Positions 27,858-31,956 of a DNA stretch of 64,000 nt are shown piece after piece (position 1 is the first letter of the stretch; each line of letters starts with the position of its first letter). Position numbers and translations under genes: made by a program. The notes under the pieces are model-generated. The model made no database searches. It was not told the DNA's origin and worked only from the letters and a program-made list of their open reading frames with translations. Source of the stretch: Nonlabens dokdonensis DSW-6 (GTDB lineage Bacteria > Bacteroidota > Bacteroidia > Flavobacteriales > Flavobacteriaceae); the NCBI RefSeq assembly GCF_000332115.1, contig NC_020156.1, positions 1,922,001 to 1,986,000 on the forward strand, given 5' to 3'.

Positions 27858-28880
27858 ATGAAGAAAGAATCCATTTACGATGCAGTGAAAAACAGAATTC
27901 TTGTGCTCGACGGAGCGATGGGAACCATGTTACAGAAACATAAATTTGAAGAAGATGACTTTAGAGGTGATCGTTTTAAAAACCATCCATGCGATGTAAA
28001 AGGAAATAACGATTTACTTTCCATTACACAACCAGAAGCGATTGCGGCTGTTCATAGAGCCTATTTTGAAGCAGGAGCAGATATTGTAGAGACAAATACC
28101 TTCTCTGCAACTACCATCGCCATGGCAGATTATGAAATGGAATTTCTAGTGGACGAACTCAATGAGCAAAGCGCGATCATCGCAAAACAGGTGGCCGACG
28201 AGTTTACAGCTCGTGAGCCTCACAAACCTAGATATGTAGCTGGTGCGATAGGTCCAACTAATAAAACAGCCAGCATGTCTCCAGATGTTAATGATCCTGG
28301 TTATCGTGCCATTACCTTTGACGAATTAAGAATTGCATATAAACAGCAAGCCGCAGCTTTGGTAAAAGGTGGCGTAGATGTATTACTAGTAGAAACCATA
28401 TTTGATACCTTAAATGCAAAAGCAGCATTATTTGCTATTGAGGAATTAAAAGAGGAGCTAGGTAAAGACATTCCCGTAATGGTAAGCGGTACAATAACAG
28501 ATGCTTCCGGAAGAACTTTAAGTGGCCAGACTGCTGAGGCTTTTTTAATTTCAATCGAGCATATTCCTTTATTATCGATAGGTTTTAATTGTGCGCTCGG
28601 TGCAAAACAATTGACGCCTTATTTAGAGTCAGTTTCTAGTAAATCAAATTATGGGATCAGTGCTTATCCTAATGCTGGATTGCCTAATGCTTTTGGAGAA
28701 TACGATGAAACTCCAGAGCAAATGGCATCTCAAATTAAAGAGTATTTAGATAAATCATTGATCAATATTGTAGGTGGATGTTGTGGTACATCACCTGCTC
28801 ACATAAAAGCCATTGCAGATATAGCAGCACAATACCAACCTAGATATATCCAAAACACTAAAACTACTGCTCATGTCTAA
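27858..28880 (+). CDS. metH: Methionine synthase, homocysteine-binding half
   Basis: A 340-residue protein equal to the first module of cobalamin-dependent MetH. It begins [11 protein letters not shown] after a short lead and carries the zinc ligands GFNCALG and [11 protein letters not shown]. It binds homocysteine as a thiolate for methyl transfer. The remaining modules are encoded by the next gene, which overlaps by 8 bases; such a split MetH is usual in Flavobacteriia. Expression is set by the SAM-I riboswitch. Confidence 0.95.
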
Positions 28881-31800
28881 AGAATTCCGTCCTTTGAAGT
28901 TAAGCGGTCTCGAGCCGCTGGTTATCACTCCTGAGAGTAATTTTGTAAACGTAGGAGAACGTACTAACGTTGCTGGTTCTAAAAAGTTTCTCAGATTAAT
29001 AAAAGAAGATAAATTTGATGAAGCGCTAGAAGTTGCTAGAGATCAAGTAGAAAATGGTGCACAAATTATTGATATCAATATGGACGATGGACTTATTGAT
29101 GGAAAGGCCGCCATGGTTCGGTTTTTAAACCTTATTGCAGCAGAGTCAGACATTACTAGAGTTCCTATAATGATTGATAGCTCTAAGTGGGAAATTATAG
29201 AAGCAGGATTGCAGGTTGTACAGGGAAAATGTGTCGTTAATTCCATCAGCCTAAAAGAAGGTGAAGAAGAATTTATACGTCATGCCAAAGCCATAAAAAG
29301 ATACGGTGCAGCAGTTATAGTTATGGCATTTGATGAAGTAGGACAAGCAGACAACTATGAACGCAGAATTGAAATTGCAAAGCGCAGCTATGATCTATTA
29401 GTAGAAAAAGTAAACTTTGCTCCAGAAGATATCATTTTTGACCTCAATATTTTTCCAGTTGCTACAGGTATGGAAGAGCACAAACTCAACGCGCTAGATT
29501 TTATTAATGGAACACGATGGGTAAAAGAAAATTTACCACACGCGAGTGTAAGTGGTGGAGTGAGTAATGTGAGTTTTAGCTTCAGAGGTAACAATACCGT
29601 ACGAGAAGCGATGCACAGTGCTTTTTTATACCACGCTATCAAAGCAGGAATGAATATAGGTATTGTTAATCCTGCATTGTTAGAAGTCTATGACGATATT
29701 GATAAAGAATTACTAGAACATGTAGAAGATGTTTTATTAAATAGAAAAGAAGATGCTACAGAAAGACTCCTAGATTATGCAGAGTCGGTTACTCAAACTG
29801 TTAGAGTTTCAACCATAGATAACAGTTGGAGAGAACTGCCTTTACAAGACCGTATTACTCGATCATTGGTCAAAGGAATCGATGCTTTTATCGTAGAAGA
29901 TGTGGAAGAAGCAAGATTATCTGTAAAAAGGCCTATTGAAGTGATAGAAGGCCACCTCATGACCGGTATGAATGTGGTAGGAGACTTATTCGGTAGTGGG
30001 AAGATGTTTTTACCACAAGTGGTTAAAAGTGCTCGTGTTATGAAACGTGCTGTGGCGCATTTATTGCCATTTATTGAAGAAGAAAAACTCAGACTCCAGG
30101 CCCCTAAATCCCCTAAGGGGACTTTTTCTTCTTGGCAAACTGCCAATCCGATTGCCTACGGCATTCTTAAAGAGCGTGTTAAGGCTAGTCGCCTCAATCC
30201 TACTGAGGCTGAGGCTAAACTTTGGGAGCATTTGAGCAATAAGAAATTAGATGGATACAAGTTTAGAAGAGAACATATAATTGGAATGTATATCGCAGAT
30301 TTTGTTTGTCTGAAGGAAAATTTAGTAATTGAAGTAGATGGCGGTTATCATAACGATCTAGAACAACAAGAAAAAGATAAAGAAAGAACCGAGTGGCTCA
30401 ACGATCACGGCTTCAAAGTCATTAGATTCACAAATAAAGATGTGCTTCAGAACATCGAATTTGTTCTTGACTCTGTCAAGAACAAACTCGAAAAAGTCCC
30501 CTTTGGGGATTCAGGGGCTGGGAAAGTGCTTATGGCAACCGTAAAAGGTGATGTTCACGATATTGGAAAAAATATTGTTTCGGTGGTTTTGGCTTGTAAT
30601 AATTACGAGATTATTGATTTAGGAGTTATGGTGCCGCCAGAAAAAATTCTAGATGCTGCCATAGAACACAATGTAGATATCATTGGTTTGAGTGGTTTGA
30701 TAACGCCATCGCTGGACGAAATGGTTTATCTCGCCAAAGAAATGAAACGTCGCGATTTTAAAGTCCCGCTTATGATAGGCGGTGCGACTACTTCGCGCGC
30801 GCATACCGCTGTAAAAATTGATCCAGAGTACGATTGCACGGTGGTTCATGTAAATGATGCGAGTCGTGCGGTAACTATTGCTGGAGAAATTATTGAGAAG
30901 AAGGATGGTGGTCATCTCGCTTTCGCGAAAGCGAAAAAAGAAGAATACACCAAACTAAGAACTGACTTTTTAGGAAGAGCTAAGAAAAAAGAGTTTTCAA
31001 AATTAGAGCAAGCTCGCAAGAACAAATTAGCTTTAGATTGGAATAATTTTGAGGCTGTAAAACCAAAAAAACTTGGCGTTCACACTCTTGATGAGATCGA
31101 TTTTAATGAATTGAAAGACTACATCGATTGGTCGCCATTTTTTAGAAGCTGGGATCTACACGGTCGCTATCCAGATATTTTAACTGATGAGGTCGTAGGC
31201 GAGCAAGCGACAGAACTCTTTAAAGATGCTCAAGAAATGCTTTCTCAAATCATTGAAGAGAATTGGCTTGAAGCCAAAGCTGTTTATGGACTTTTTCCTG
31301 CTAATTCAGTTAATGATGACGATATAAAAGTAACCAGCGATCAAGAATACATTTTTAGAACATTAAGGCAACAATCTAAAAAAGCAGCAGGAAAACCCAA
31401 CATTGCTCTTGCCGATTTTATCGCACCACAATCAATTGACAAACAAGATTATATAGGAGCGTTTTGCGTTACTACAGGTTTTGGTGTGGCTGAAAAAGCA
31501 AAAGAATTTGAAAAGGATCATGACGATTATAATTCCATCATGCTCAAAGCTCTCGCAGATCGATTTGCAGAAGCACTTGCAGAGTACCTACACTTGAGAA
31601 TACGTAAAGAATTTTGGGGTTATGCTAGTGATGAGAATCTAGCAAATGACTCCTTGATTAAAGAAGAATACAAAGGAATACGTCCAGCGCCAGGATATCC
31701 AGCCTGTCCAGATCATTTGGAGAAATTGACGATTTGGGAATTACTCGATGTAGAAAAACATACAGGTGTGACCTTAACGGATAGTCTTGCCATGTGGCCA

Positions 31801-31956
31801 GCAGCAAGTGTTTCTGGATATTATATAGGTCATCCAGAAGCAAAGTACTTCGGTCTTGGGAAAATCAAGGAAGATCAAGTAGCAGATTATGCAAATCGAA
31901 AAGGCATCTCCACGGAGAAAGCTACAAAATGGCTCAATCCCAACATCGCCGATTAA
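28873..31956 (+). CDS. metH: Methionine synthase, folate/cobalamin/activation half, with inserted DUF559 domain
   Basis: A 1027-residue protein. Residues 10-290 form the pterin-binding barrel ([16 protein letters not shown]), followed by the cobalamin cap. The Rossmann cobalamin domain has [10 protein letters not shown] with the His ligand at 562, and the C-terminal activation domain contains [12 protein letters not shown] near 937. Between cap and Rossmann domain, residues about 410-549 are foreign: a DUF559/Vsr-like nuclease domain ([13 protein letters not shown] at 442, ADF with Asp476, VIEVDGG with Glu487 and Asp489). The insertion keeps the frame and is flanked by inverted repeats at 30100 and 30491. 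Residues within LAFAKAKK further on come from a dispersed palindrome. MetH motifs around the insertion are intact, so the enzyme is probably functional. Confidence 0.93.
30100..30127 (+). repeat. Left inverted repeat of the DUF559 insertion
   Basis: 28 bases including CCCCTAAATCCCC and GGGGACTTTTT, the mirror of 30491-30518 with two mismatches. Confidence 0.9.
30491..30518 (-). repeat. Right inverted repeat of the DUF559 insertion
   Basis: 28 bases including AAAAAGTCCCC and GGGGATTCAGGGGC, the mirror of 30100-30127. Confidence 0.9.
30918..30933. repeat. Dispersed palindrome inside metH
   Basis: A perfect copy read in frame as Ala-Phe-Ala-Lys-Ala within the linker after the cobalamin domain. 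Confidence 0.95.

Follow-up and report, generated by a model that had tools for sequence, protein, structure and literature searches.

A segment embedded in the gene for cobalamin-dependent methionine synthase (metH) of Nonlabens dokdonensis DSW-6 is probably a mobile palindromic element that is translated with its host gene, is not spliced out, and carries its own nuclease of homing-endonuclease fold; its cleavage and movement are steps that we infer. The window analysed here comprises 64,000 nucleotides (NC_020156.1, positions 1,922,001 to 1,986,000); coordinates below are those of the window unless a locus is named, and metH and the parts of the embedded segment lie on the forward strand. 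This reading draws on the anatomy of the segment, its in-frame fusion to unrelated proteins, the coexistence of empty and occupied sites, purifying selection on the nuclease, and the co-occurrence of nuclease and palindromes, each of them apparent from sequence comparison.

The methionine synthase of the window is encoded by two open reading frames (ORFs), one of 340 residues (27858-28880) and then metH itself (28873..31956, 1027 residues), which by ORF and Pfam analysis specifies the enzyme without its homocysteine module and is open throughout; the two frames overlap by 8 bases. Within MetH, a Pfam search with the whole protein places PF04480 (DUF559) at residues 434-539 with an E-value of 3.7e-34, between the B12-binding_2 cap domain (residues 325-397) and the B12-binding Rossmann domain (residues 550-657), which is where a preliminary description of this DNA had located a DUF559/Vsr-like domain. 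PF04480 scores of 117 and 122 bits compare with a Pfam cut-off of 20.6. The nuclease module (30172..30489), assigned on Pfam, conservation and fold matches, sits in frame within MetH and does not break its reading frame; its Pfam score and its similarity to structure 3hrl make it a member of the DUF559 family, and it unites the Vsr/EDxHD fold with conserved acidic and histidine residues. The putative active-site residues are D476, E487, D489 and H493, and the three acidic ones, already noted as retained, are each conserved in 199 of 200 inserted DUF559 domains; this conservation and dN/dS point to purifying selection on the inserted nuclease. Inside the unit, Pfam matches are limited to DUF559 and a weaker REase model, with no transposase family, and no intein (Hint) family appears among the MetH matches at E<=0.001. 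The preliminary description had reported neither transposase nor intein: the second point stands, and the first holds within the unit, while Y1 transposase matches occur elsewhere in the genome. In a predicted structure of the whole of MetH (pLDDT 78.8, pTM 0.40), in which the placement of the domains relative to one another is unreliable because of the pTM, the insert forms a folded module, and most of the residues encoded by the palindromes lie in stretches 408-424 and 540-548, where pLDDT is below 50.

The module is enclosed by two terminal palindromes, found by repeat search and inspection of the sequence, which are 34 nt long and form an inverted repeat of a kind used to recognise insertion sequences. 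The left one (30095..30128) has a host-frame reading that includes APKSPKGTF and contains an inner hairpin (TCCCC TAA GGGGA, 30109..30121); the right one (30490..30523) has a reading that includes VPFGDSGAG and contains the hairpin TCCCC TTT GGGGA (30497..30509). Both arms are open in the host frame and carry the CCCC/GGGG stems first described for them; the repeats had been given as 28 bp with 26 matches, and the two mismatches recur in what is now a 29-nt core, the extent being the part that changes, with arms 88% complementary over 34 nt that begin about five bases before 30100. The window contains a single match to the end pattern CCTAAATCCCN{3,14}GGGACTT, and 100 shuffled versions of the window contain none. 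Among the 82 inserted domains with enough flanking DNA for a repeat test, left and right flanks of the same unit score a mean of 12.0 as inverted repeats, against 10.0 for same-site units of other genomes, 8.7 for other sites and 7.4 for shuffled flanks, the medians (10 vs 8) being closer than the means; for many units, including nearly all of those in RecG, the repeat is not above chance within the 150 bases tested. Perfect ends of 42 bp bound one unit, which lies between purQ- and purC-like genes. No clean target-site duplication is visible at the compared sites because host linkers vary there.

A further hairpin of 17 bp (94%) lies at the 3' end of the nuclease coding sequence (30455..30491; repeat search and synonymous shuffles). 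The five Nonlabens MetH inserts have stems of 7-17 bp at this place, which exceed synonymous shuffles in four of them. The stem reads GTTCTTGAC/GTCAAGAAC in two genomes (G000 and G002) and GTTTTGAAC/GTTCAAAAC in G001, so that both sides are altered and the pairing is kept. As a general part of the unit's anatomy this hairpin was rejected, because only 5/83 inserted domains (four Nonlabens MetH and one HisD) and 0/37 solo DUF559 domains exceed synonymous shuffles (p<=0.05).

DUF559 is present in 188 of 397 genomes of the family and 222 of 395 of the phylum, and many of the Bacteroidota units have palindromic flanks. Its in-frame hosts include proteins of metabolism and translation, namely MetH (at three positions), LeuRS (at two), IleRS, MetRS, HisD, the N-terminus of HemD and PurQ, as well as the DNA-related RecG, Type ISP and type I restriction enzymes, and a DNA methylase; the expectation that DUF559 and the repeats would recur inside other housekeeping proteins is thereby borne out in several conserved genes. 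Twelve protein queries were searched against Pfam, and for some database rows a name is given by the source; the names PurQ, PurC, HisA, HisC, HisH and IcmF-like, and most of the LeuRS, IleRS and MetH site labels, are putative assignments from sequence motifs. A single Pfam domain is matched in two stretches in a Type ISP protein (L126) and in an IleRS (L089), as expected of an interruption. Among the 150 best-scoring DUF559 matches listed for the 397 family genomes, 60 lie in frames of at least 300 residues, compared with three of the 150 best-scoring matches listed for a GIY-YIG control in 110 family genomes. The insert region, used as a protein query, matched 1139 proteins, 120 of which were listed. 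Two DUF559 copies are carried by 24 proteins, and in three of these the pair are mutual best matches. One MetH (L066, genome G236) has two inserts at different sites that are 88% identical to each other, and two helicase-domain proteins of 1528 and 1546 residues (P0035 and P0066) each contain a pair of copies, with identities between the two of 98% and 87%. A HisH-like amidotransferase frame in genome G017 (L102, 1428-2723) holds a DUF559 unit and further palindrome-derived stretches and still runs to the end of the enzyme.

Relatives commonly have an empty allele at the corresponding site, as expected of a homing element: a metH match (E<=1e-20) was found in 91 of 110 family genomes representing 109 genera, and it is uninterrupted in 89 and split in two. 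The occupied MetH site recurs in scattered lineages, and on a host tree comprising 58 genes with the insert and 26 without it, at least 11 state changes are required, 8 of them forced by starred branches; the occupied genes are those retained out of 91 after removal of near-identical ones, and the empty ones are those entered out of 35 unoccupied loci, nine having failed a motif filter. The preliminary description had named empty sites that were never found, or an ancestral, fixed insertion with no repeats elsewhere, as findings that would speak against it; the empty sites and the repeats elsewhere contradict both. In one genus (g250; 61 genomes matched, 30 loci read) a unit occupies the same C-terminal position in nine PurQ genes, in two lineages of four and five that are 46-50% identical, host tail included, and 21 further PurQ loci have the tail and no unit. 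On a tree built from 185 of 237 domains, site labels change 34 times compared with 122.7 in shuffles, and 93 of the 237 domains come from the MetH site, which is over-represented because one protein search began from MetH. The arrangement is best read as one of site-faithful lineages with occasional jumps, and vertical descent would also contribute to the site fidelity.

The genome of N. dokdonensis itself has nine PF04480 matches that correspond to seven copies, two of them frameshifted and each matched twice; the copies in MetH and at the C-terminal end of HisD are the two that lie in long frames. A strict version of the left-end pattern is found at three places in the 3.9 Mb (the HisD unit, HisC and MetH), and a looser 85-bp palindrome query gives 21 matches; a high-copy REP family was rejected because of this modest copy number. 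The copy in HisC is free of nuclease: it consists of 84 nt in frame, read as AYPKSLPAEGTSNEVSPLGKMSAGQKGL. The same HisC site has no insert in genomes G016 and G003, where it reads NEL, and has a similar insert in G011, 94% identical to that of N. dokdonensis. A short palindromic piece also stands in frame within HisA (L186, 10475-10561), which brings the hosts of in-frame palindromic insertions in this genome to MetH, HisD, HisC and HisA; a right-end palindrome is in frame in an ORF of 807 residues with a GTGGAGKS motif (L187, 1715-1754). Most of the remaining palindrome matches fall outside frames of more than 150 residues, one (L196) lying in a frame of 194 residues. Two adjacent frameshifted DUF559 genes (C1:70582-71492, L006-L009) stand next to CTCCTTTCCTTGG palindromes.

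Within the genus, 14 of 23 Nonlabens genomes contain DUF559 (N. dokdonensis included), and 17 of the 51 matches lie in frames of at least 300 residues, MetH, HisD and LeuRS among them. Relatives that have the MetH insert carry the name Nonlabens, and a contig scan with the window element returned one named relative, Nonlabens antarcticus, in a search from which records close to the window's genome may be omitted. A strong metH match is found in ten Nonlabens genomes: the site is occupied in five, the linker is short in two, and in three it is longer and free of palindromes. The other 13 have no strong metH match, and nine of these are listed as 99-100% complete, so that metH itself is patchy in the genus.

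Palindromes of this kind could be REPIN-like units moved by Y1 (RAYT-like) transposases, with DUF559 as a passenger caught between two of them and the in-frame cases as survivors. REPIN/RAYT is an established palindrome system (PMC3116915), Y1_Tnp matches are found in 17 of the 23 Nonlabens genomes and three times in N. dokdonensis, and their counts correlate with palindrome counts (Spearman 0.45; 0.60 for strong matches). In a comparison made with one palindrome query in this one genus, however, palindrome presence follows the nuclease (14/14 DUF559-positive genomes vs 2/9 DUF559-negative ones, Fisher p 1.5e-4) and is not associated with Y1 presence (11/17 vs 5/6, Fisher 0.62) or with strong Y1 matches (10/12 vs 6/11, 0.19), all p-values being optimistic given the non-independence of the genomes and a query taken from a single one of them. 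All 14 DUF559-positive genomes also have palindrome matches at a distance of over 1.5 kb from every DUF559 gene. Genomes G001 and G005 have DUF559 and six and four palindrome matches with no Y1 match at E<=0.001; a DUF559 gene is found no more than 1.5 kb from 21 of the 97 palindrome matches, and none of the 97 is that close to any of the 54 Y1 matches (one is within 3 kb). The tie between a Y1 gene and the palindromes that characterises REPIN/RAYT is thus not found in Nonlabens with this query, nor would a passenger be expected to keep the near-invariant active site of the inserted domains (199/200), and this explanation is unlikely.

A quite improbable alternative is that of an old insertion, vertically inherited and often lost, which has left MetH with a spacer domain that is inert or of slight use. 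It draws on some of the results that limit the mobile-element reading proposed here. Divergence within Nonlabens is alike for insert (0.18-0.285) and host (0.187-0.254), no coconversion surrounds the insert when G001 is compared with G008, and tree discordance was dropped as proof of horizontal movement, as it is no better than its control: the AU test rejects the host tree for the MetH insert (delta lnL 151), and does likewise for seven host windows of equal length (63-172). Insert and host trees share 18 of 55 splits, inside the host-window range of 11-29, and for 160 of 174 inserted domains the closest relative found in another protein occupies the same site. Within Nonlabens, carriage of the insert is largely vertical or by exchange of whole alleles, because inserts diverge about as fast as hosts. 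A further limit on the mobile-element reading is a Type ISP restriction gene of genome G017 (L103, 1-4401), which holds a unit and a further palindromic stretch, is spread over several frames and is likely broken; the idea that every host is spared was rejected because of this frameshifted gene, although a broken copy is what is expected where the host gene is dispensable. Inheritance with loss is nevertheless hard to reconcile with the 89 uninterrupted genes among 91, with the many hosts, the double copies and the two lineages at one PurQ position, and it poorly explains an identical 33-residue unoccupied linker region in G006 and G008, which are 19% apart in metH, while G001, the sister of G008 at a metH distance of 4.7%, is occupied. 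That the fused nuclease instead serves the host cell, for example in defence or repair as a nuclease made together with essential enzymes, would agree with the purifying selection and with the several hosts that are restriction-modification proteins, but a host trait is not expected to show occupancy that is patchy even between sister species, unrelated hosts, palindromic ends and nuclease-free short versions; we regard it as very improbable.

The favoured reading remains the mobile translated element, and the selfish-element interpretation of the preliminary description is supported, its homing step staying at the level of inference from sequence; invasion of essential genes without killing them agrees with the in-frame units in many conserved genes and does not extend to the frameshifted restriction gene. 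The element would consist of a DUF559 coding region lacking its own start or stop, bounded by REP-like palindromes open in the host frame, and would enter conserved genes at their ends or in inter-domain loops. Where the gene is essential, only frame-keeping insertions would survive selection, because the host protein can still fold with an additional domain held on flexible tethers. The nuclease would be made as part of the host protein and not spliced out or otherwise processed. Most likely, this Vsr/EDxHD-type enzyme nicks or cuts the empty allele or the palindromic ends and repair then copies the element in, presumably with partner enzymes, which would give same-site homing between strains and occasional jumps to new sites. 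Imprecise removal from essential genes is harmful, as argued for inteins and introns. The short nuclease-free palindromic elements may be non-autonomous relatives moved in trans. Whether all this amounts to a widespread Bacteroidota class of autonomous elements, persisting as permanently translated, non-excised domains of essential proteins through translatable palindromic ends and an EDxHD/Vsr-type nuclease responsible for homing to empty alleles, and accompanied by in-frame satellites that lack the nuclease and are mobilised in trans, is about an even bet. If true, a homing-type element could last in essential genes without being spliced out, by means of translatable ends and a nuclease tolerated as a domain; DUF559 would gain a function, the REP-like palindromes of Bacteroidota an account and in-frame palindromic elements an enzyme, and a route would exist for new domains into tRNA synthetases and metabolic enzymes.

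The function of DUF559 is given as unknown in Pfam; the open-access papers listed for it do not mention in-frame mobile behaviour in the title or the beginning of the abstract, and among the open-access titles listed by the searches made, none is on an in-frame palindromic element that bears a nuclease. Each ingredient has a precedent, and the combination was not found described in the open-access literature searched. In enzyme and niche the element is like homing endonucleases (PMC3943268); compared with EDxHD/Vsr-like homing endonucleases (I-Bth0305I) and inteins, no intein domain surrounds the MetH nuclease, which, unlike an intein, appears to remain in the host protein. In genome organisation it is like REPIN/RAYT, where palindromes occur singly and in pairs, are spread in the genome and flank an enzyme gene thought to move them (PMC3116915); unlike that system, the enzyme here is a nuclease of restriction-endonuclease fold rather than a Y1 transposase, and the units insert in frame into coding sequence. 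Nearest in behaviour are the Rickettsia palindromic elements, which are likewise palindromic and form translational fusions by in-frame insertion into unrelated metabolic genes (PMC10969869); they are about 150 bp long and encode a conserved peptide, and the available part of that account does not mention a nuclease. The short elements in HisC and HisA of N. dokdonensis are their closest match, while the longer form, unlike the Rickettsia elements as described there, includes a conserved nuclease and turns up repeatedly at the same sites in distantly related lineages.
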